A DNA stretch of 64,000 nucleotides from an uncultured Kiritimatiellota bacterium (GCA_944391055.1 CALXSF010000010.1:1-64000), one strand, 5' to 3'. Shown: positions 49,549-64,000, numbered from the stretch's first letter. Made by a program: numbers and translations. The notes: a model not told the origin generated them from the letters alone.

Positions 49549-50220
49549 TTATGCCGCGCGGCGGCGGAGCGCCAGGCCCGCCGCGCCGAGCGCCAGCAGC
49601 GCAAGCGCCGTCGGCTCGGGGATGGCAGCGGCGGCATAGGCGTCGTCGTAGGTCATCCCATCGACCAGGTAAATGTCGGCCTGCCACGTGCCGCCCAGGT
49701 TGTTGTAGCCATTCCCGTTCTGTTGCCCCCAGACGAGCGTGACGGCGTCCCAGTCCGGGAAGCCCGTCACCGTCCCGTAGAGCGTCCCGTCCACGTAGAG
49801 CGAAAGCACGTCGGTCGCCCCGTCGAAGGAGAAGACGAACTCATACGAGCCCGCCCCCATCTGGCGTCCCTGCCAGCCCTCCGCCTGGGTGAAACCGTTG
49901 TTGTCGCTGCCCGTGTGCTTGATGATGCTCGCGAGCGTGTTGCCGTTGCCTCTGTAAAAGAAGCGGGTCGCCTCGGTGCCGCCGTTCGTGATGCCGAAGA
50001 GGCCGGGGAATCTGCCATTCGCGTCCTGGAAGACGGAGATGTTCAGCACGCACGCGGCGACCCACTTCGTGGAATCCTCCGCCAACGTGATCGTGCCCGC
50101 GCCCGCCGAGGTCTTGTCGGAGAAGCGGTTCGTACCCGCGAGGCTGCCCCAGTCGACCGTGGCGGCCTGGGCGGCGCCGAGGGCCAATGCGGCGAAGGCC
50201 GCGGTTAGGATGTGTCTCAT
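49549..50220 (-). CDS. PEP-CTERM anchored secreted protein (LamG-like)
   Basis: 223 residues. Signal MRHILTAAFAALALGAAQAA; beta-sandwich features (KWVAACVLNISVFQDA, YEFVFSFDGATDVLSLYVDG); C-terminal PEPTALALLALGAAGLALRR tail, nearly the same as the protein at 37183-37836. The bodies of the two differ, so they share the anchor rather than function. A weak GGAG lies about 14 nt before the ATG. Likely surface-exposed, perhaps sugar-binding. Confidence 0.87.
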   Translation of the reverse strand: MRHILTAAFAALALGAAQAATVDWGSLAGTNRFSDKTSAGAGTITLAEDSTKWVAACVLNISVFQDANGRFPGLFGITNGGTEATRFFYRGNGNTLASIIKHTGSDNNGFTQAEGWQGRQMGAGSYEFVFSFDGATDVLSLYVDGTLYGTVTGFPDWDAVTLVWGQQNGNGYNNLGGTWQADIYLVDGMTYDDAYAAAAIPEPTALALLALGAAGLALRRRAA

Positions 50221-50501
50221 TTGCTCAGGATTGCTCCATTTCCCGCCCCGTGCCGTGAAACCGAAGGAGCCCCGGGACGAGAAGTACCCTCTTCGATGTC
50301 TTTGGCGAGGTCTTAGGATTACCCTTACAGCAACATCGAAAGGGCACGCGGAACCACGTGCGCACATTCGGACGGCTGTGGAAAGTTCCTAAGTTTCGCC
50401 AAACGTCCTGATCGTGCGGTCAGCACACTGCGGCGGCTCTCCCGCTGCGTGCCCCTAAGATACCACCTTCGGGTGGTCGCACGCAAGGCTTTTCGGCGGG
50501 G
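50221..50501. other. 281-bp gene-free, structured region
   Basis: No open frame that I can support. Contains the inverted repeat TTCGATGT (50292-50299) / ACATCGAA (50333-50340), a GCACG/CGTGC hairpin near 50345, a large imperfect hairpin around 50427-50452, and ACCACC-TTCG-GGTGGT at 50463-50478. Probably the promoter and 5' leader of the PEP-CTERM gene plus the 3' end of the CAAX protease transcript; an RNA gene cannot be excluded. Confidence 0.4.
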
Positions 50502-51164: not shown

Positions 51165-51757
51165 GGCGCGGCGAGGTCGGCGAGGGTGAGGTCGCGCCAG
51201 CCGGGCTGCCCGAGGAGGGTCTCGAGGAGGAGGGCGCAGGCGAGGGCGTCGTAGTAGGCGTCGTGCGGGGCGCGGCCGGGGGCGAGGGCTTGGAGGCGGG
51301 GGAGGAGCCCCAGGGCGGGGATGAGGGCCTCGAGGGCGTGGCTGGGGAGCCCGGGCCAGGCGGCGCGGGCCAGGCGCAGGGTGTCGACCCACCACGGATA
51401 GCGCGTGAGGGGGGCGAGGCGGGCGAGGGTGGTGCGCTCGGCGGAGACGTTGTGGGCGACGGGGACGGTGGCGGCGAGCAGGGGGTGGAGGCGCGCCCAG
51501 ACGGCGAGGGGCTCGGGCGCGGCGGCGATTTCCCCGCGCCGGGCGCGGTGGTCGCCGGGGGCGTGGCGGGAGAAGGGGTGGCCGGCGGGGACGCGGATGA
51601 GGGTGTCGAGGCGGGGCGCGCCCAAGTCGACGCGCCCGCCGCGGAGGCTGACGGCCCCGAGCTGCCAGGGCAGGCTCTCAAAGCCGCGCACGACGCCGGT
51701 GGTCTCGAAGTCGAGCGCGGTGAAGGGGAGGTCGCGGGCGGGCGCGTCGGGGCTCAA
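51161..51757 (-). CDS. DEDD-type 3'-5' exonuclease (DnaQ-like)
   Basis: 198 residues from TTG 51757, which overlaps the sialidase stop (TTGA) and has AAGGA 6 nt upstream. FTALDFETTG carries the first D-x-E; PVAHNVSAERTTL corresponds to Exo II, with Glu where Asp is usual; HDAYYDALACALLL carries Exo III His and Asp. Resembles DNA polymerase III epsilon-like or stand-alone exonucleases. The non-ATG start and the Exo II change lower certainty about activity. Confidence 0.78.
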   Translation of the reverse strand: MSPDAPARDLPFTALDFETTGVVRGFESLPWQLGAVSLRGGRVDLGAPRLDTLIRVPAGHPFSRHAPGDHRARRGEIAAAPEPLAVWARLHPLLAATVPVAHNVSAERTTLARLAPLTRYPWWVDTLRLARAAWPGLPSHALEALIPALGLLPRLQALAPGRAPHDAYYDALACALLLETLLGQPGWRDLTLADLAAP

Positions 51758-53214
51758 GGGATGTCCTTGAGGGGGACGCGGAGGAAGTAGAGATAGTCGG
51801 ACTGGCCCTCGTAGAGGACGCCGACCCAGCCGTCGCCCAGGTCGCAGAGGGAGGAGTAGCCGGCGCAGGGGCGGGGGTCGTAGACGAGGCCCTTGGACCA
51901 GGTTTTGCCCTCGTCGCGGGAGGCGCGCAGGGTCATGGTGTCGCGCTTGCCGGAGTTGGGGTTGGAGAAGACGAGGGTGTCGCCGACGCGGAGCATGGCG
52001 GCCTGGCAGAGGTTGCCGGGCTGGCGCAGGGGGGTGGTCTCGACCTTGCGCCAGGTCTGGCCGAGGTCGTCCGTCCGGGCGGTGATCCGGGTGGCGGGGC
52101 CGCCGCCCTCGCGGGTGTTGAGGAGGATGGAGCCGTCCGCGAGCTGGACGACGGTGGATTCGGAGCCGCCGAAGGGGTCGCCGTTGGAGACGGCCCAGGT
52201 CTTCCCGTGATCCTTGGAGTAGATGAGCGTGCCGTGGCGGGGGGCCTTGCCTTTGTCGCCCCAGGCCTGGCCGGGGAAGACGAGGGTGCCGTCCTTGAGG
52301 ACGATGCCGGCGCCGGGGCCGTCGAAGAGGAGGCCCCATTTGGCGGCCTCGGGGTGGCCGGGGTGCTTGAGCTCGGCGGTGAGGTTGCGGGGGGCGGACC
52401 AGGTCTCGCCCTCGTCGTCGGACCAGGCGACGTAGAGCTGCCCGCAGGTCTCGTGGCCGACGGTGCCGGCGGAGGAGCTCCAGATGGGGTGCCCGGAGTC
52501 GGGCGTGCGCATGGCCATCACCCAGATGCGGCCGTTGGCGGGGTCGACGAGGATGGCTGGGTCGCCGATGCCCGGGCGCTTGCCGGGGAGCCCGGCGTAG
52601 TCCATGGCCGTGCGGATGGGACTCCAGGTGTTGCCGCCGTCGCGGGAGGTGGAGACGCCCACGGTGATGTCGGCCGGGAGGTCGCCGGCGTGTTTGTAGC
52701 GGATGTCGAAGACGGCCACGAGCGTGCCCTTGGGGGTCTTGGCCAGGCCGGGGATGCGGAAGTTCTTGGAGGCGCGCAGCCGGCCGTCGGGGAGGCGGCG
52801 GTCGGCGATTTCCTGCGCGGGGCGGGTGACGAGGCTGCCGATGCGGATGCGGTGGCCGGCCACGCAGAGGCTGCCGCGGAGGTCGGCCCCCTCGGCGAGC
52901 TCGGCGTAGAGGGGGAAGGTGTTGGCGCCGGCCTTGACGGGGAGGGTGAAGGTGGCCGTGTCGTTGTCCACGCGCGCGCACTGCGAATCGCCCAGGCTCA
53001 GGCAGACGACGTCGGAGGGGTTGGTGCCGCGGATGTCCAGGCGGAGCTTCTCGGCCTGCGCGTCCTGCGAGGCGGTGAAGGTGACGTGCGCGATGGGCAC
53101 GTCCTTGCGTCCCTTGAAGGCCGGCACGCCCGTCGGTTCCACCTTCACGCCCGAAAGCGCCGCCTGCGCGGCCGCCGCGAGGGCCGCAATCGCCACTGTC
53201 ATCGTCTTGCGCAT
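51754..53214 (-). CDS. Exo-alpha-sialidase, GH33
   Basis: 486 residues, secreted (MRKTMTVAIAALAAAAQAAL). N-terminal beta domain of about 130 residues, then the six-blade propeller starting KNFRIPGLAK (FRIP, about residue 152). Asp boxes: SRDGGNTW, SDDEGETW, SKDHGKTW, TDDLGQTW, SRDEGKTW. Releases terminal sialic acid from host glycans. AAAGGAA precedes ATG 53214. It is the first gene of a coupled set with the exonuclease and CAAX protease. Confidence 0.95.
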   Translation of the reverse strand: MRKTMTVAIAALAAAAQAALSGVKVEPTGVPAFKGRKDVPIAHVTFTASQDAQAEKLRLDIRGTNPSDVVCLSLGDSQCARVDNDTATFTLPVKAGANTFPLYAELAEGADLRGSLCVAGHRIRIGSLVTRPAQEIADRRLPDGRLRASKNFRIPGLAKTPKGTLVAVFDIRYKHAGDLPADITVGVSTSRDGGNTWSPIRTAMDYAGLPGKRPGIGDPAILVDPANGRIWVMAMRTPDSGHPIWSSSAGTVGHETCGQLYVAWSDDEGETWSAPRNLTAELKHPGHPEAAKWGLLFDGPGAGIVLKDGTLVFPGQAWGDKGKAPRHGTLIYSKDHGKTWAVSNGDPFGGSESTVVQLADGSILLNTREGGGPATRITARTDDLGQTWRKVETTPLRQPGNLCQAAMLRVGDTLVFSNPNSGKRDTMTLRASRDEGKTWSKGLVYDPRPCAGYSSLCDLGDGWVGVLYEGQSDYLYFLRVPLKDIP

Positions 53215-53244
53215 GATACGTTCCTTTCGTTGAGGGACGGGGAT

Positions 53245-53255
53245 AGCCTAACACA
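53245..53255 (-). promoter_or_regulatory. Probable -10 of the sialidase gene
   Basis: Minus-strand TGTGTTAGGCT about 30 nt before the start; a variant of the recurring extended -10. Confidence 0.4.
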
Positions 53256-53259
53256 AATC

Positions 53260-54087
53260 TCAGGGACGGTAAAGCCCCGCGGGCGCGTCCTCGCCATCGA
53301 AGGCGGGCAGGGGGAGGTGGGCGTCGGGGGTGCCCTCGGGGATCGCGTCGACCCAAAGGTCGCCGAAGGGGGCGCTTTGGGTGACGGTGACGTGGCGGAG
53401 GCGCAGGAGCTCGAGGAGGGCGACGAAGGTGACGATGATCTCGCCCTTGGGCGCGTCCGGCGCGAAGAGCGCGCCGAAGCGCAGGTGGCGCGCCTCGGCG
53501 ACGCGCGCGAGGATGCACCGGATCTTGTCGGGCACGGACCAGCGGCGCATCTTGAGGTGGCCAAAGGAGACGGTCTCGGAGGCGCGCGCGAGCACCGCCT
53601 TGAAGGCGGCCAGCAGCGCGTCGACCCCCACGTCGCCCAGGCGCGGGGCGGGGGGGCCGGGGGAAGGGTCGGGCGCGGCGCGCCCGCGGGGGAAGGTCTC
53701 GCCGCGCAGGGCCTCGCGCGCGGCGAGGTCGGCGGCGGCTTCCTTGCAGCGTTTGTAGGCGATGAGCTGGCGGACGAGGTCGAGGCGCGGGTCGGGGCCC
53801 TCCTCGCCCTCGCCGTCCTCCTCCGCCGCCTCGTTGGGGAGGAGGGAGCGGCTTTTGATGAGCATGAGGGTGGCGGCCATGACGGCGAACTCGCCGGCGA
53901 CGTTCACGTCGGGCGCGCGCCACCGCGCCAGGTAGGCGAGGTATTGCTCGGTGATGCGGCCGATGGGGATGTCGCAGATCGCCACCTCCTCCCTGCGGAT
54001 GAGGAAGAGGAGGAGGTCGAGCGGGCCCTCGAAGGCCTCGAGGCTTACCTTGTAGTCGTCAAAGAGGGGGAGCGTGGCGTCGGCCAT
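53260..54087 (-). CDS. scpA: Segregation and condensation protein A
   Basis: 275 residues, kleisin partner of SMC. FEGPLDLLLFLIRREEVAICDIPIGRITEQYLAYL is the N-terminal SMC-neck domain; AGEFAVMAATLMLIKSRSLLP follows; the C-terminal winged-helix is VTFVALLELLRLRHVTVTQ. Starts 15 nt after the GH3 stop with no Shine-Dalgarno site, so it relies on readthrough or reinitiation from the GH3 gene. scpB is not next to it. Confidence 0.95.
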   Translation of the reverse strand: MADATLPLFDDYKVSLEAFEGPLDLLLFLIRREEVAICDIPIGRITEQYLAYLARWRAPDVNVAGEFAVMAATLMLIKSRSLLPNEAAEEDGEGEEGPDPRLDLVRQLIAYKRCKEAAADLAAREALRGETFPRGRAAPDPSPGPPAPRLGDVGVDALLAAFKAVLARASETVSFGHLKMRRWSVPDKIRCILARVAEARHLRFGALFAPDAPKGEIIVTFVALLELLRLRHVTVTQSAPFGDLWVDAIPEGTPDAHLPLPAFDGEDAPAGLYRP

Positions 54088-54102
54088 CGGGGCGGGGCCT
54101 GG

Positions 54103-56400
54103 CTATTTGTGGGGGCGCGCCTCGTGGCGCACGGGGAGGTTGGCGGCGGAGTCGCCGATGAGCACGGCGCAGGGGGCCTGGGGGATGCGCCAGGCGCCGG
54201 CGGCCTCGCTCCAGTAGCGGAAGTCGTTGGGGCGGAGGTCGAAGGTGACGAGGCGTTCCTCGCCGGGGGCGAGGGTGACGCTCTTGAAGGCGGCGAGCTC
54301 CTTGGCGGGCATCTCCTGGCCCTCGCTCTCGGGCTTGGAGACGTAGCATTGGACGACCTGGCGGCCGGGGCGCGCGCCCGTGTTGCGCACCTTGACGGCG
54401 TAGCGCAGGGCGTCGGGGTCGGCGTGGGCGGGCGCGATGGCGAAGGTGGTGTAGGAGAGGCCGAAGCCGAAGGGCCAACGCGGCTGGCGGCCGTAGCGGT
54501 CGAAGCCGCGGTAGCCCACCCAGATGCCGTCGTGGTAATACTGGCGGGCCTGGAAGGGCTTGGGCAGGCGCTCGCCCTTGGCGTCGGTGAGGAGGCCGGG
54601 CCAGGCGAGGCTCTCGCCCATGCTGTGGCAGGGCCAATCCTCCAGCCTCCGGCCCCAGGTGTAGGGGAGGCGGCCGGAGGGCGAGGCGTCGCCGAAGACG
54701 AGGTCGGCCAGCGCCAGGCCCCCCTCGCCGCCGGGGTACCAGGTGACGAGCAGGGCCGGGATGGCGTCGATCCACTCCTCCACGGAGACGGGCGCGCCGG
54801 TGGTGAGCGCGACGACGACGTTGGGGTTCGCCGCGGCCACCCGCCGGATCAGCTCCGCCTGCGGGCCTTTCAGGGCGAGGCTCGGGCGGTCGGCGGGGAG
54901 GACGAGCCCCCAGCCCTGCACTTCGCGGTCGAGGGAGTGGTCGAGGCCGCCGCAGAAGATGACCAGGTCGGCCTGGCGCGCGGCCTCCACGGGGTCCATC
55001 GCCGGCATCCCCGGCACGGAGATGGCGTCCTTGCGGCCCTCGTTCTCGAAGCGGAAGCCGGGGGCGAAGAGGACGCGGTCGCGGCCGAGGCGTTCGACGA
55101 AGGCGGCCAGCGGCGTGACCTCGCGGTCGGTGTGGATGGCGCCGGAGGCGCCGCGCCGCTCGAGCGGGGAGCCGTCGATCATCGAGTGGTACTGGTCGGC
55201 GTTCGGGCCGATGAGGGCCACTTTGCGGACGTCCTTCTCGGCGCGGGGGAGGAAGGCGCCGTCGTTCTTCAGCAGCACGGCGCTTTCGCGGGCGACGCGG
55301 CGGGCGAGGGCGCGGTGCTCGGGGGAGCGGAGGCTGCGCTCGCAGGCGGCCTGCTCGGCCTTGTCGGCCTCGGTGGCGAGGTCGAAGGCGCCCATGCGGA
55401 AGAGGTTGCGCAGGTTGCGGCGCGTGGCGTCGTGCGCGCGTTCGGGGTCGATGAGGCCGGCGCGCACCTGCTCGGCCTCGCGTCTGTCGCGCGCGGGGTC
55501 GGGGCCGGCGGTGCCGGATTCGAGGGTGGCGCCGCCGTTGAGGGCCTTGACGGTGTCGCGCCAGCCGCCCCAGTCGGAGTAGATGGCGCCGTCGAAGCCG
55601 AAGCTTCGGAGCAGGTCGTTGATCTCGGCGCTGTGGGAGCACCAGTGGCCGCGCACCGCGTTGTAGCCGCCCATGACGGCCCAGACGCCGGCCTCCTTGG
55701 CGGCGATCTCGAAGGGGCGGGCGTAGAGCTCGCGCAGGGCGCGCTCGGGGCAGTCGACGTCGAGGATGGTGCGGGCCCATTCCTGGTCGTTGAGCACCCA
55801 GTGCTTCATGCAGGGGGAGACCTTGACGGATTGGAGGCCCCGGCAGATGGCCGCGGCCATCTTGCCGGTCAGCACCGGATCCTCGCCGAAATACTCAAAG
55901 TTGCGCGCGCCGAGGGGGGAGCGCGCGAGGTTCGCGCCGGGCCCCAGGAGCATCCGCGCGGGGACGTCGGCGACGGCGTAGGCGCCCCGGGTCTCGCGGC
56001 CGAGGGCGCGGCCCACGGCTTCCACGAGGGCTTCGTCCCACGTGGCGGCGTAGGCGATGGCGGTGGGGAAGTAGGTGACGGGGCGCGCGGGCTCGGTGCG
56101 CGGGCCGTTGGGGCCGTCGAGCGTGCGGATCTCGGGGAGGCCGATGCGGGGGATGAGGCCGCTGCTCATGCCGCCGCTGGCGTGGCGGAGGCGCGCCTTC
56201 TCCTCGTCCGTCAGGCGGGCCATCAGGTCGTCGACGCGCGCCTCGATGGGGAGGGTGGCGTCGCGGTAGGGGGCGTCGGCCGGCGGCGCGCCCGCGATTG
56301 TCGCGGGGTGCGCCACGCGCGAGACCGTGCCCGTGGCCATGCCTTGGGCCAGGAGTGCCCCGGGGAGCATCGCCGCCAACAAAAGCGCAGACGTTTTCAT
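54103..56400 (-). CDS. Glycoside hydrolase family 3, BglB type
   Basis: 765 residues. Signal MKTSALLLAAMLPGALLA. Nucleophile in DGAIYSDWGG (about residue 275); MKHWVLNDQEW with the KH motif; C-terminal FGFGLSYTTF and fibronectin-III-like domain. Unlike the two GH3 enzymes above it lacks the N-terminal D-N-N-G motif and groups with amygdalase/BglB-like forms (SDWGG rather than SDSxAV). A -10 TATACT ends 6 nt before the ATG with no Shine-Dalgarno site. Confidence 0.94.
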   Translation of the reverse strand: MKTSALLLAAMLPGALLAQGMATGTVSRVAHPATIAGAPPADAPYRDATLPIEARVDDLMARLTDEEKARLRHASGGMSSGLIPRIGLPEIRTLDGPNGPRTEPARPVTYFPTAIAYAATWDEALVEAVGRALGRETRGAYAVADVPARMLLGPGANLARSPLGARNFEYFGEDPVLTGKMAAAICRGLQSVKVSPCMKHWVLNDQEWARTILDVDCPERALRELYARPFEIAAKEAGVWAVMGGYNAVRGHWCSHSAEINDLLRSFGFDGAIYSDWGGWRDTVKALNGGATLESGTAGPDPARDRREAEQVRAGLIDPERAHDATRRNLRNLFRMGAFDLATEADKAEQAACERSLRSPEHRALARRVARESAVLLKNDGAFLPRAEKDVRKVALIGPNADQYHSMIDGSPLERRGASGAIHTDREVTPLAAFVERLGRDRVLFAPGFRFENEGRKDAISVPGMPAMDPVEAARQADLVIFCGGLDHSLDREVQGWGLVLPADRPSLALKGPQAELIRRVAAANPNVVVALTTGAPVSVEEWIDAIPALLVTWYPGGEGGLALADLVFGDASPSGRLPYTWGRRLEDWPCHSMGESLAWPGLLTDAKGERLPKPFQARQYYHDGIWVGYRGFDRYGRQPRWPFGFGLSYTTFAIAPAHADPDALRYAVKVRNTGARPGRQVVQCYVSKPESEGQEMPAKELAAFKSVTLAPGEERLVTFDLRPNDFRYWSEAAGAWRIPQAPCAVLIGDSAANLPVRHEARPHK

Positions 56401-56406
56401 GGCGAC

Positions 56407-56416
56407 AGTATAACAC
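56407..56416 (-). promoter_or_regulatory. -10 element abutting the GH3 start
   Basis: Minus-strand GTGTTATACT; TATACT (56412-56407) is followed by six bases and the ATG at 56400. Confidence 0.55.
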
Positions 56417-56498
56417 CTTCCCCGAGGCCCCGTCCCGCCCGGCGCGCCCGGCGGCGCGGCCTGCGCCCTGCGATACGCGGCGGGGCGCGCGGGGACGG

Positions 56499-56527
56499 AA
56501 AAGCCCCCGGCCGGGTGGCGCGGGGGC
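56499..56527 (-). terminator. Intrinsic terminator of the FGE-like fusion gene
   Basis: On the minus strand GCCCCCG pairs with CGGGGGC around an 11-nt loop, followed by TTTT. Confidence 0.7.
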
Positions 56528-56554
56528 GTTGTGGGGAGTGACGAGGGGCGGGGG

Positions 56555-59500
56555 TCAGTCTTCGACGACGACGCGGAAGCCGACGTTGTAGGGGTGCTGC
56601 CAGGCGGGGTAGCCCCAGCGGTTGGCGGAGGAGGCGCGGATCTGCCGCTGGTACCAGGAGCCGCCGCGGATGACCTTGAGCGCGGGGTCGGCGCCTTCGA
56701 AGCCGGGGCCGCCCTGGTAGGGGACGAAGGGCGAGCTGGTCCATTCGGCGACGTTGCCGTGCATGTCGTGGAGGCCGAAGGCGTTAGGGAGGTAGGAGCC
56801 GACCTTGGCGAGGTGGAGGACGCCGTCGTCGAAGCGGGGGTCCTTCTTCTCGTAGTCCATCCACTTGTTGGGGTTGCGGATGGGCTGAGGGTCGACGCCG
56901 TGGACGGCGAGGCGCTTCATGGTGACGTCGGCGAGGTTGGCGTGCTTGGAGAAGTCGGCGTTGAAGTCGCCGTAGTTCATGGGCGTGGCGGTGCCGGCGC
57001 GGCAGGCGTATTCCCATTCGGTCTCGGTGGGGAGGCGGACTTTCTTGCCGGTCTTCTTGGAGAGCCAGTCGCAGAAGGCCTGGGCCTGGTCGTAGGAGAC
57101 GCGGATGGCGGGGAGGTCGGGGCCGTTGACGAAGTAGCCGCGGTTGACCTGGTCCTTGTAGTGCTTGTCGTAGACGCCGTTCTCGAAGGTGGGGTCGAAC
57201 TGCTGCATCATGCCCATGGTGACCTCGGTGGTGCCCATGTAGAAGGGCTTCTCGACGGCGGCGGCGTGGGCGGGGGCCTCGGCGTTGGTCTCGTCGTTGG
57301 AGCCCATGACGAAGCTGCCGGCGGGGATCTTGACGAGGGTGATGGTCTGGTTGCCGCCGAGGTCGAGGGTGAGCGTCTCGCGCTTGCCTTGCTTGGCGGC
57401 GCCGTCGAAGGGCCAGCCGGCGACCTGGGGCGCGGGGGCCTTGGCGACGGTGGGGCCGGTGGGCTTCTGGAAGGCGACGGCGCCGGGCTTGTAGGGGTTG
57501 ATGACGCGCTCGGGGTCGAAGTCGAGGTTGGAGGTGGTTTTCTCGAGCTCGCGGCGCTTGTCGATCATGTTGTTGCGGACGCCGCGTTCGGTCCAGGTGC
57601 CGTAGTAGGGGACGTTGAGGTCGATCCAGGTGATGAGGCGGTCCCATTCCTCGGGGGTGAGGGTGACGCCGTGGTGGCCCTTCTTCAGAATCTGGTAGAG
57701 GTCGGAGGTGGAGGCGTGGAACTCGAGGGGATTGAGGATGTGGTAGTCGCCCTCGGGGCCGTTGCGGCGGACGTAGGGGTGGAGGGCGAGGTAGGACTCG
57801 GAGAACTTGCCCCAGCCGAGCTTCGGGTTGTACTCCAGGTTGGGGATGGGCTCGCCCATGGCGGTCTTGGCGGTGGTCTTGCCGTTGTGGCAGCCGACGC
57901 ACTTGGCGTCGAGGACGGGCTGGAGCTCGCGCTCGAAGGCCCAGCCGCGGGCGGGGCCGTACCAGGGCTTGATGGTCTGCGGGGGCTTGCGGCTGGCGGC
58001 GGTGCGCTGGCCGGAGGGGGCGGCGGCGTTCTGGTTCTCGTGGCAGCCGATGCAGCTGATGGTCTCGCCGGGCTGGCCGACGAGCCAGGAACGCATGACC
58101 TGGAGGGCGCGGCCCTCGCTGTCGAGGGGCTGGACGCTCAGCGGGGTCTGGGCGGGGAACTGGAACATGCAGGAGCCGTCGTCCTCGACGTCGACGGTGC
58201 CGTGGAGGACGCGGGGATCCCACGGGCCTTCCATGCCGATGACGTAGTGGCCGCCGGCGTAGCGCGGGGAGTACTCATAGTGGAAGACGCGGAGTTTCTT
58301 GACGGTGCCGTGGGGGACGTCCTTGAGGGTGTTCTGGCCGCGGTAGACGTTGGCCATGTAGACGTTGCAGGTCTTGGCGTCGGGGACGATGTTGTCGGTG
58401 CGGACGGCGGGCTTGGCCGGGGCCTTGAGGGGGATGGGCTCGTAGAGGTTCTCGTTGGGGAGCTCCCAGAGGGTGAGGCAGTTGTCGTAGATGTCGATGA
58501 GGACGATGCGGAAGGTGGAGGAGGGGGAGTCCTGCATGGCGGCGAGGACGAGCTCGTCGTTCAGCGGGCGGGGGTGGAGGAAGAAGGGCCGGGCGTTGTT
58601 GACGAGCTGATCCTTGGTGATGTTCTCGATGGGCTTGCCGGCGTGGGCGAACTTGTGGATGGCGCCCTGGGTCTCGATGCGGCCCTTGGTGACGTCGAAC
58701 ATCACCATCTCGCCTTTGCGGGCGACGCCGTGGTGGCCGGAGACGATGCCGACGAACTTGGTGTTGCTGCCGGGGATGTTCTGGTGGTAGAAGAGGGAGT
58801 TGGGCCAGTAGGAGCCCGAGCCGTAGAACTCCTGCTGGTCGGTGCCGTCGGGGTTCATGGTCATGAGGACGCGGGAGAAGTAGTGGGCGGAGTCGGTGTA
58901 CTCCCAGCGCAGGAAGACGACGCGGCCGTTGGGGTAGACCTCGGGGTTCCAGTTGCCGTCCTGGTCGAAGGTGAGGCGGCGGACGGTCTTGCGGTCCTTG
59001 GAGATGCGGCAGAGGTTGGCGACGATGTCGTTGCCGCCGACGCAGGGGACGCCCTGGAAGCCGACGGTGGCGGAGGAGATGATGTCGCCGTTGGGGAGGT
59101 AGCAGGCGTCGTAGAAGTCCACGGACTTGTCGGGGGATTTGTAGGCGACGCGCCAGTCCTTGCCGTCGACGCCGACCTCATAGAGGCCCCAGTTACCGCC
59201 CTTTTCGTCCGCCTCGCCGGAGGACATCAGGATGGTCTTGCCGTCCCAGTCCAGGCAGAGCTCGCCCATGTAGGCGGAGGATTCGCGCAGGACAGTGGGC
59301 GCGCGGCCCTTGGCCGTGTCCTGGTCGAGGGGGCCGCGCAGGAGCTTGCCCTTGTAGCCGCGCAGGGAGCCGTCGTTGTTGCCGACCCAGCCGGTGTTGC
59401 CCTGCCAGTTGGCGAAGAGGCCCTGCTTGGAGCCTTTCTCGCGGGAGAGGAAGATGATCTCGCCGAAGTCGACCGCCGGGTGCTTGAGGAGGATCGCCTT

Positions 59501-60229
59501 CTGGAGGGCGCGGTAGTCGGCGTAGATGCTGGGATAATCCTTGTCGCCCTGCTCGATGCGCCGCTGCAGGGCGTCGATGTCGGCTGCGATCTCCTTGGCG
59601 TTCGGGTAGTTCTCGGGATACTTGGCGGAATAGGCCTTCAGGCCGTCGCGCAACGCGTTGAGGTTGATGGCCTTGGTGAGGGCGGCGATGCGGGCGCGCT
59701 CGGCGCGCTCGGCCAGGGTCTCGCAGCGCTGGCCGGCGCGGGGGCCCTTGCCGGGCCGCTCGGTGACGAAGAAGTTCTGGCGCTCGGTCTTGGGGCGGTC
59801 CTCTTCCCAGACGATCTTGCGCTCGCCGTCGGAGAGGGTCACGCGCACGCCGTCGAGCCGGCCGCCGAAGCCCTCGCCGCGGTTCCACAGCACCACGCGG
59901 TCGATGGGATAGGCCTTGCCGAGGTCAAGCTCCCAGGTGGGGGTGTCGACGTTCTCCTCGGTGTGGGTGATGGTGTTGGCGCCGAAGCGGTCGGAGGTGT
60001 TGCCGTCGATCGCGCGCTTGGCGGGGGCTTTGTAGGCGGTGCTGCTCTGGGTGGCCTGGCCGGAGGGGGCGACGTTCTTGTCGCCCACGAAGACCTCCAC
60101 CTCGGCCAGCGAGAGCGTCGCCGACTCGCGCGGGATGTCGACCGTCACATAACGGGCCTCGACCGCGCCGTAACCGTGCGCGGCCAACGCCGCCAGCAGG
60201 GCGGCCAAAGCGAATCTGGAGCACTTCAT
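56555..60229 (-). CDS. Fusion: discoidin - HzsA-like propeller - cytochrome c motifs - FGE-like domain
   Basis: 1224 residues. Signal peptide (to about 22); discoidin/F5-8C-like domain (25-135: YVTVDIPRESATLSLAEVEV, WELDLGKAYPIDRVVLW); helical linker; beta-propeller resembling the hydrazine synthase alpha / TolB type (about 240-700); two c-type heme motifs CIGCH (about 723) and CVGCH (about 775); C-terminal FGE/SUMF1 fold from VKIPAGSFVMGS (about 965) through RLPTETEWEYACRAGT, FGLHDMHGNVAEW, VIRGGSWYQRQ. In true FGE the tail carries two copper-binding Cys; here that stretch reads GGSWYQRQIRASSANR, without Cys, so formylglycine formation is unlikely. Periplasmic; role unknown. GGAGAAA precedes the ATG. 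Confidence 0.88.
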   Translation of the reverse strand: MKCSRFALAALLAALAAHGYGAVEARYVTVDIPRESATLSLAEVEVFVGDKNVAPSGQATQSSTAYKAPAKRAIDGNTSDRFGANTITHTEENVDTPTWELDLGKAYPIDRVVLWNRGEGFGGRLDGVRVTLSDGERKIVWEEDRPKTERQNFFVTERPGKGPRAGQRCETLAERAERARIAALTKAINLNALRDGLKAYSAKYPENYPNAKEIAADIDALQRRIEQGDKDYPSIYADYRALQKAILLKHPAVDFGEIIFLSREKGSKQGLFANWQGNTGWVGNNDGSLRGYKGKLLRGPLDQDTAKGRAPTVLRESSAYMGELCLDWDGKTILMSSGEADEKGGNWGLYEVGVDGKDWRVAYKSPDKSVDFYDACYLPNGDIISSATVGFQGVPCVGGNDIVANLCRISKDRKTVRRLTFDQDGNWNPEVYPNGRVVFLRWEYTDSAHYFSRVLMTMNPDGTDQQEFYGSGSYWPNSLFYHQNIPGSNTKFVGIVSGHHGVARKGEMVMFDVTKGRIETQGAIHKFAHAGKPIENITKDQLVNNARPFFLHPRPLNDELVLAAMQDSPSSTFRIVLIDIYDNCLTLWELPNENLYEPIPLKAPAKPAVRTDNIVPDAKTCNVYMANVYRGQNTLKDVPHGTVKKLRVFHYEYSPRYAGGHYVIGMEGPWDPRVLHGTVDVEDDGSCMFQFPAQTPLSVQPLDSEGRALQVMRSWLVGQPGETISCIGCHENQNAAAPSGQRTAASRKPPQTIKPWYGPARGWAFERELQPVLDAKCVGCHNGKTTAKTAMGEPIPNLEYNPKLGWGKFSESYLALHPYVRRNGPEGDYHILNPLEFHASTSDLYQILKKGHHGVTLTPEEWDRLITWIDLNVPYYGTWTERGVRNNMIDKRRELEKTTSNLDFDPERVINPYKPGAVAFQKPTGPTVAKAPAPQVAGWPFDGAAKQGKRETLTLDLGGNQTITLVKIPAGSFVMGSNDETNAEAPAHAAAVEKPFYMGTTEVTMGMMQQFDPTFENGVYDKHYKDQVNRGYFVNGPDLPAIRVSYDQAQAFCDWLSKKTGKKVRLPTETEWEYACRAGTATPMNYGDFNADFSKHANLADVTMKRLAVHGVDPQPIRNPNKWMDYEKKDPRFDDGVLHLAKVGSYLPNAFGLHDMHGNVAEWTSSPFVPYQGGPGFEGADPALKVIRGGSWYQRQIRASSANRWGYPAWQHPYNVGFRVVVED

Positions 60230-60261
60230 GGCTTTTCTCCGTTGTTTCTTCGTTTAGTGAT

Positions 60262-60271
60262 AGGATAACAC
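60262..60271 (-). promoter_or_regulatory. Extended -10 promoter of the fusion gene
   Basis: Minus-strand GTGTTATCCT about 33 nt before ATG 60229. Confidence 0.5.
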
Positions 60272-62599: not shown

Positions 62600-62770
62600 T
62601 CACTCGGCGACGATGGCTTCCATCGGGCAGGCGCCGGCGCAGGTGCCGCAGCCGACGCACTTCTCGGGGTCGATGACGTAGGTGGGGTCGCCGGCGGAGA
62701 TCGCCTCGACGGGGCACTCGCCCGCGCAGGTGCCGCACGCCACGCACTTCTCGGTGATTTTGTAGGCCAT
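62600..62770 (-). CDS. 2[4Fe-4S] ferredoxin
   Basis: 56 residues, clostridial type. Two C-x2-C-x2-C-x3-CP motifs: CVACGTCAGECP and CVGCGTCAGACP. Low-potential electron carrier, as in fermentative anaerobes. GAAGGAG precedes ATG 62770. Single-gene transcript between a promoter at 62828 and a terminator at 62541. Confidence 0.96.
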   Translation of the reverse strand: MAYKITEKCVACGTCAGECPVEAISAGDPTYVIDPEKCVGCGTCAGACPMEAIVAE

Positions 62771-62827
62771 GATGAGCTCCTTCGTTGGGTCGGCCCCAAG
62801 CCTCCTGCCCGGGGTCTGAATGGCAAT

Positions 62828-62859: not shown

Positions 62860-64000
62860 CTAAATGCTGGCCGCCGCCCCTTCGCCGCCCCCGGCCGGGG
62901 CGACGGCGCGCCGCTCGCCGCACCGGAGCGTGAGGGTGAGGGCGCGGTCGGGGAGGCGCAGGCGGAACGTCCCGTCGCGCAGGGCGGTGACGGTGAGGGC
63001 GGTGAGGCGGCCCCCCTCCCAGGCGGCGTCGACGAGCAGCCCGGGCTCGGCGCGGAAGCCGCGGAAGGCGCCGGCGGCGGCGAGGCGCCGGGGCAGGGCG
63101 GGGAGGACGTGGACGACGTCGCCCTCCGTGCGCAGAAGCAGCTCGCAGAGCGCGGCGGGGGCGCCGTTCATGTCGCTGACCTGGGGGCAGCCGACGGTGA
63201 GGGTGAAAAGGTTGGGGCAGAAGTGCAGGGCGGCCTGGTCGATGGCCTCGAGCGCGGCGTCGCCCTGGCGGAGGCGGGCGCGGATGCCGGCGGCGACGCC
63301 GAGGGACCAGCCGGTGACGTGGTAGCCGTGGGCGAAGCGTTTGCGGAGGGTCTTGTCGAGGGCGGCGCAGAGTTCGGGCGTGCCGTCGAGGGTGACGCGG
63401 CGGCCGGGGAGGAGGCCGTAGGCGTGGGAGATGTGGCGGTGGCCGGGCTCGGCCTCGGGGAGGGGCTCGGACCATTCCTGGAGGGCGCCGTCGGGGCCGA
63501 TTTGGGGGAGGGCGAGCCGTTCGAGGGCGGCCTGCGCGCGGGGGATGAGGGGGTCGGCGGGGGTCTGGGCGCGGGCGAGGGCCAGGAAGTCGGTGAGCGT
63601 GGCGTGGATGAGCTCCTGGTCGTGGGCGGGGCCCATGTCCACGGAGGCGCTTGAGCCGTCGGGGAGGCGGTAGGCGTTCTCGGGGGAGGTGGAGGGGCCG
63701 GAGACGAGGCGCCCGGTGCGGGGATCCTCGACGAGCCAGGAGAGGAAGAAGCGGGTCTGCTGGCGCAGGAGGGGCAGCAGGCGGTCGCGGAGCGCGGGGT
63801 CGCGCGTGTAGCGCCACGGGGCGAGGGCGTCTTGGAGGAGCCAGGCGCCGCCGGCGACGTAAAGCCCCCAGCTCACGTGCCCGAACGGGACGGGGAAGCC
63901 CCAGGCGTCGGTGCAGACCGAAAGGAACCAGCCCTCGGCGCCGAGCATGTCGCGGGCGGTCTCCGCGCTGCGGGGGAGGGCCATCTCGGCGAGGGTGGTC
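62860..64000 (-). CDS. GH95-like alpha-L-fucosidase, 5' end outside window
   Basis: C-terminal 379 residues of a glycoside hydrolase 95 enzyme. PFGHVSWGLYVAGGAWLLQ with YTRDPALRDRLLPLL, VSGPSTSPEN, GPAHDQELIHATL, GHRHISHAYGLLPG and TGWSLGVAAGIRARL are GH95 (alpha/alpha)6-barrel motifs; a beta domain closes the protein. Removes alpha-1,2-linked fucose (or galactose) from host-type glycans. The frame is open to base 64000. Confidence 0.9.
   Translation of the reverse strand, partial: TTLAEMALPRSAETARDMLGAEGWFLSVCTDAWGFPVPFGHVSWGLYVAGGAWLLQDALAPWRYTRDPALRDRLLPLLRQQTRFFLSWLVEDPRTGRLVSGPSTSPENAYRLPDGSSASVDMGPAHDQELIHATLTDFLALARAQTPADPLIPRAQAALERLALPQIGPDGALQEWSEPLPEAEPGHRHISHAYGLLPGRRVTLDGTPELCAALDKTLRKRFAHGYHVTGWSLGVAAGIRARLRQGDAALEAIDQAALHFCPNLFTLTVGCPQVSDMNGAPAALCELLLRTEGDVVHVLPALPRRLAAAGAFRGFRAEPGLLVDAAWEGGRLTALTVTALRDGTFRLRLPDRALTLTLRCGERRAVAPAGGGEGAAASI

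Follow-up and report, generated by a model that had tools for sequence, protein, structure and literature searches.

The window analyzed here is a 64,000-nucleotide stretch of DNA from an uncultured Kiritimatiellota bacterium. Near its end, a reading frame with an ATG start occupies positions 56555 to 60229 on the minus strand and encodes 1,224 residues; an initial annotation of this DNA had described the frame, and its length, coordinates, domains, motifs and tail were confirmed. A Shine-Dalgarno-like GGAG lies ahead of the ATG (60237-60240), and an inverted repeat follows the gene upstream. The following features were assigned:

56555..60229, minus strand: whole gene for a 1,224-residue, predicted secreted HzsA-like/FGE-like fusion (ORF, translation, Pfam)
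60164..60229, minus strand: predicted Sec signal peptide, residues 1-22 (MKCSRFALAALLAALAAHGYGA, read by eye)
59750..60160, minus strand: discoidin-type (F5/8C) module, residues ~24-160 (PF22633, E = 8e-13; PF00754, E = 6e-9)
59489..59716, minus strand: four-helix segment, residues ~172-247 (AlphaFold pLDDT mostly 85-96)
58310..59482, minus strand: HzsA-like beta-propeller, residues 250-640, carrying the invariant C396, R441, Y444, D446 and H500
58037..58309, minus strand: HZS_alpha middle domain, residues 641-731 (PF18582, E = 3e-29)
58040..58054, minus strand: heme motif 1, C726-I-G-C-H730, at the HzsA heme alphaI site (kept in 41/41 relatives)
57575..57994, minus strand: C-terminal heme domain, residues 746-885, aligned to the HzsA heme alphaII domain
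57887..57901, minus strand: heme motif 2, C777-V-G-C-H781 (kept in 41/41 relatives)
57671..57676, minus strand: H852-H853, candidate distal ligand of heme 2 (conservation in relatives and HzsA alignment)
56567..57340, minus strand: FGE-like domain, residues 964-1221 (PF03781, E = 2e-42; PvdO 5hha, PorK, SUMF1)
56633..56650, minus strand: positions of the FGE cysteines, occupied by Gln1194 and Ala1199 (alignment to SUMF1 Cys336/Cys341)

Each of the four parts named in the initial annotation (discoidin module, HzsA-like propeller, paired CxxCH motifs and FGE-like domain) was recovered by Pfam or by an HzsA profile, but a confident helical bundle between the discoidin module and the propeller, absent from that annotation, makes the chain five parts rather than four. 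The N-terminal module matched F5_F8_type_C_2 over residues 72 to 136 (E = 8e-13), exceeded the Pfam cut-off for F5/8 type C (49.2 versus 27.8 bits) and matched the fucolectin FBP32 (3cqo, E = 3e-23). Two very long frames lie on the plus strand: 56531-60268, over the gene itself, looks like a GC-rich shadow frame, and 52207-56541 is a second shadow ORF opposite real genes, again an effect of high GC content.

The middle of the protein belongs to the HZS_alpha family (PF18582, 101.8 bits against a Pfam cut-off of 26.6). A profile built from 41 relatives aligned with HzsA (5c2v) at E = 7e-37, in pieces over the propeller, heme-alphaI and heme-alphaII domains, and the two CxxCH motifs therefore correspond to the two HzsA heme sites, motif 1 aligning with the CSGCH of HzsA. 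The HzsA segment with the zinc ligand Cys303 lies outside these aligned pieces. Structural overlay, which the initial annotation had proposed as a check, agreed: in Foldseek searches with two AlphaFold models, 5c2v was the best PDB match (E = 3e-21 and 2e-24, TM ~0.5), the models being of middling quality (pLDDT 60, poor, for the mature whole chain and 72, fair, for the core). The whole-chain model also matched PvdO through its FGE part. Both CxxCH motifs were present in every complete HZS_alpha ORF examined, the sole ORF lacking both (L053) being cut off by a contig edge ahead of motif 1. The heme motifs are real, and the test that the annotation had set itself, refutation if they were not conserved in relatives, came out in its favor. 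Also invariant across the 41 diverse relatives were C396, R441, Y444, D446, H500, R647, D684, S686, E722, Y813, W868 and D870. By analogy with HzsA, the propeller residues among these would face heme 1, and an invariant set of this kind points more to a reaction site than to simple electron transfer. At the candidate distal ligand of heme 2, H852 was found in 38/41 relatives and H853 in 21/41; the HzsA chain residue H745 (probably His772) aligns at H853, whereas H852 is the more conserved histidine.

The C-terminal domain has the FGE fold (PF03781, 145.9 bits). Its tail contains no cysteine, Gln1194 and Ala1199 standing where SUMF1 has Cys336 and Cys341, and the copper pair was found in 0 of 58 fused relatives. 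A single cysteine occurred at the 341 position in five of these and at the 336 position in one. The claim that the tail lacks the active cysteines thus holds for the window protein and for its relatives, and the refuting pattern named in the annotation, homologues in separate genes whose FGE cysteines are normal, was not seen. In one locus (L125, G018:C52:13300-18300), the HZS core and the FGE-like domain lie in two adjacent ORFs, split or frameshifted; the separate FGE ORF likewise lacks the pair. The 336 position was Asp in 22, Gln in 17 and Glu in 6 of the 58 relatives (45/58 together), with Gln rather than Asp or Glu in the window organism's own genus. In a structure-database alignment PvdO carries Glu there; a glutamate of PvdO has been proposed as catalytic. 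PvdO was also the solved relative with the best E value for the single window sequence, and the closest solved structures, PvdO and GldK/PorK, have the FGE fold but serve other roles; given these, the missing pair is not remarkable in itself. Most residues conserved within the domain belong to the fold as such. Scores against the NCBIfam PvdO model (NF051459, 105.4 bits, cut-off 500) and against EgtB (45.9, cut-off 360) fell below threshold, and no DinB family that would indicate EgtB/OvoA was among the Pfam matches.

We found five HZS_alpha genes in the window organism's own genome. Besides the window gene on G000:C10, there is a duplicate of the whole fusion on another contig (G000:C14:46520-50188, 89% identical); of the other three, one carries NPCBM where the window protein has discoidin, one is long and one lacks the FGE-like domain. 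A family-profile match was present in 16/16 sampled congeners, as fragments in a few poor assemblies. More broadly, of 289 Verrucomicrobiota genomes sampled, 60 encoded HZS_alpha, the copy number reaching 16 or more in some, and the domain was also detected in Bacteroidota; FGE-fused forms occurred in Verrucomicrobiota beyond the genus and in Bacteroidota, so that the family search suggested by the initial annotation revealed a fusion recurring across two phyla rather than a one-off. Proteins lacking the FGE-like domain were common too, with the heme core retained. When 41 cores were placed in a tree, a single branch (support 100/100) separated all 22 FGE-fused forms from the rest, requiring one change, from which a single fusion, apparently kept ever since, follows most simply. 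The Bacteroidota homologues (L019-L026) were placed inside the fused clade beside a Kiritimatiellae paralogue (99/97), a nested position that suggests lateral transfer between phyla. Two further HZS-FGE homologues (G003:C7:81859-85365, L127; G023:C66:141819-143915) each contain one in-frame TAG, attributable to decay, error or recoding.

Cytochrome c maturation genes track this family. The window organism's genome encodes a CcsA scoring over cut-off, with a short ResB-like gene just upstream of it. Across the class, CcsA was detected in 57 of 59 genomes with HZS_alpha versus 55 of 134 without (Fisher 6e-15), the two exceptions being 68-69% complete; within the order, the counts were 16/16 versus 0/13. 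These p-values are inflated by kinship, although both states occur within one family (f3). Because the heme motifs are kept, ResB and CcsA are present and CcsA co-occurs with HZS_alpha, covalent heme attachment to the window protein is likely. Pfam searches of the same genome for three other cytochrome families (NrfA, CBB3-type and CCP/MauG) returned no match; judging by these, HZS proteins may be the main clients of ResB/CcsA.

The gene's surroundings and N terminus connect it to glycan breakdown. Across relatives the N-terminal module is discoidin, NPCBM or absent, having been swapped. In 20 stretches drawn from multi-copy genomes, sulfatases made up 9 of the 117 neighbors of FGE-fused genes; controls taken from some of those genomes gave ≤1 of 117 (p 0.003-0.02). 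The test is small, with home-made gene calls and non-independent stretches, and its control figure derives from the 25 families listed. In two Bacteroides loci (L024 and L025), the neighbors include SusD or a sulfatase together with GH88-like, GH2 and alginate-lyase-family genes, and in the window organism's own genome GH3 adjoins the window gene and GH36 adjoins the C2 paralogue. Together, module swaps, sulfatase enrichment and the Bacteroides cluster bear out the link to glycan use drawn in the initial annotation, a link that we grade as moderate for the fused proteins. The multi-protein system also envisaged there was not borne out: no conserved operon was found across the genus loci, with purM upstream in four and PBP/VTT in two, and throughout the genus the orthologue adjoins housekeeping genes. 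Several minus-strand genes for glycan degradation crowd the window end (sialidase-like BNR, 51754-53214; GH3, 54103-56400; GH95, 62860-63984). Also on the minus strand are a PEP-CTERM protein with a weak laminin-G-like match (49549-50367) and, between the GH95 and Orn/Lys/Arg decarboxylase genes, a small 2x[4Fe-4S] ferredoxin (62600-62790, MAYKITEKCVACGTCAGECP...). Elsewhere in the genome, a radical-SAM neighbor of the C8 paralogue was considered as an anSME and rejected, as it carries UPF0004 and is of the tRNA-modifying type.

The reading that we favor, to which we give roughly an even chance, is that the window gene encodes a secreted two-heme c-type redox protein acting beside glycan breakdown, with an FGE fold that binds or helps transform the substrate in a PvdO-like manner. 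Such a protein would reside in the periplasm or at the surface, with a fixed HzsA-like core joined to the FGE-fold domain, and its N-terminal discoidin module (NPCBM or absent in relatives) would anchor it on glycans. ResB/CcsA would attach the covalent hemes to the core. Heme 1 would be the redox site, with C396, R441, Y444, D446 and H500 as candidate pocket residues, and heme 2 would transfer electrons, its ligands being His781 and probably His852. The FGE-fold domain would make no formylglycine; its closest resemblance is to PvdO, which has an acidic residue at the Cys336 position, a feature shared by about half of the fused family. The protein would act alongside hydrolases, lyases and sulfatases during anaerobic glycan breakdown; no electron partner was identified. 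In outline this retains much of the initial interpretation (architecture, heme motifs, a tail that is not that of an FGE, and a glycan link) and drops the multi-protein system.

Two enzymatic functions implied by the family names find little room in these data. The Pfam name and the nearby sulfatase enrichment could point to an active formylglycine-generating enzyme for sulfatases; however, the equivalents of Cys336 and Cys341 are both missing and the pair is absent in 58/58 relatives, FGE requires O2, and a separate anSME is encoded by cultured anaerobic relatives (PMC6388578). We rejected this activity, which is very improbable. Hydrazine synthesis or related nitrogen chemistry, to which homology over the whole length of HzsA might point, is scarcely credible. 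At the position of the heme alphaI ligand Tyr591 (H730+4) the window protein has Asn, with no Tyr nearby, and Tyr stands there in 1/41 relatives; CCP_MauG, the family of an HzsG-like partner, had no Pfam match in the 93%-complete genome; the HzsA equivalog model (NCBIfam NF052339) scored 51.9 bits against a cut-off of 800; and non-anammox homologues have been judged unable to make hydrazine (PMC12758564). Hydrazine synthase was rejected on the missing Tyr591 equivalent and the missing HzsG-like partner.

The remaining alternatives differ in what they assign to the hemes and to the FGE fold. The domain might itself be a catalytic PvdO-like oxidase, with the two hemes of the same chain accepting its electrons in place of O2. 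In favor, the single sequence has PvdO as its top solved relative, the 336 position is D, Q or E in 22, 17 and 6 of the 58 relatives where PvdO has Glu, PvdO was inactive when purified and depends on an unidentified electron route (PMC6206403), and a single clade holds the fusion as a fixed trait. Yet the conserved residues of the domain are mostly structural, the own genus has Gln rather than Asp or Glu, and FGE-less HZS_alpha proteins are common with the heme core unchanged, so we regard this as unlikely. A broader form, which we hold to be a rather long shot, is an O2-independent oxidoreductase whose FGE/PvdO-like domain oxidizes a protein or a glycan-derived compound and hands the electrons to the built-in HzsA-like two-heme core; if true, it would be a one-polypeptide anaerobic counterpart to O2-dependent FGE-fold chemistry, spread through anaerobic glycan degraders. 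If instead the protein were an electron-transfer cytochrome, possibly extracellular, lacking a glycan substrate and using its sugar-binding module merely as an anchor, two c-type heme motifs and the lack of a conserved operon would be expected; with two hemes only, no NrfA, CBB3-type or CCP/MauG partner by Pfam in the genome and many invariant polar residues that suggest a reaction site, this too seems improbable. Finally, the close solved relatives PorK/GldK and SUMF2 and the carbohydrate-binding module would suit an adhesin-like binding or structural protein with an inert FGE fold and structural hemes, but heme motifs and pocket residues invariant over two phyla that track with cytochrome c maturation make this quite doubtful.

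These results bear on a puzzle in the class. In strictly anaerobic Kiritimatiellales, 20 and 11 FGE-domain genes stand against a single anSME, which has been called paradoxical, FGE needing O2 (PMC6388578). Since many FGE-domain proteins of the class are fusions that lack the cysteine pair and are joined to a heme core, such fusions may explain at least part of this paradox, and HZS-FGE fusions should not be counted as sulfatase activators. Beyond anammox the HzsA fold is widely used, frequently in glycan contexts. The fused proteins, predicted to be secreted and to hold two hemes beside a candidate pocket of invariant residues, offer a concrete target, also in culturable Bacteroides, in the search for chemistry that may have given rise to hydrazine synthase.

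How far the system is undescribed, as the initial annotation had it, depends on the component. The fixed HzsA-FGE fusion, its apparent single origin, the Cys-less tail and the maturation tie were not found in the literature searched (subscription papers lay outside it), but HZS_alpha-domain proteins outside anammox bacteria are known from Planctomycetota, Desulfobacterota and Opitutus (PMC12758564). Also described are Verrucomicrobia cytochromes that bear carbohydrate-binding modules and whose genes lie near sulfatases (PMC5615132). The Planctomycete-specific cytochromes (PSCyt; CBM or F5/8C) likewise combine a c-type cytochrome with a sugar-binding module and sulfatase neighbors, whereas their cytochrome and partner domains are of other kinds, with no HZS_alpha or FGE reported (PMC5615132). 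FGE/SUMF1 shares the fold and the core motifs LPTExEWE, GNxxEW and RGGSW with the window protein, which lacks Cys336/Cys341. PvdO (5hha) resembles it in having the FGE fold, no Cys pair and, as predicted for the window protein, a periplasmic location, but stands alone, has no heme and differs from the window protein's Gln at the Cys336 position. The non-anammox HZS_alpha proteins have the same HzsA-like heme core without the anammox residues; they have been reported together with beta-gamma partners and lacking an FGE domain, and formylglycine and SUMF go unmentioned in that work (PMC12758564). Relative to HzsA of Kuenenia (5c2v), the window protein is extended by discoidin, helical and FGE-like parts, lacks a Tyr591 equivalent, had no HzsG-type partner in the search and has its most conserved distal histidine shifted by one residue; in common with HzsA, it has the six-bladed propeller, a CxxCH middle domain and a CxxCH C-terminal domain, with homology over the full length.
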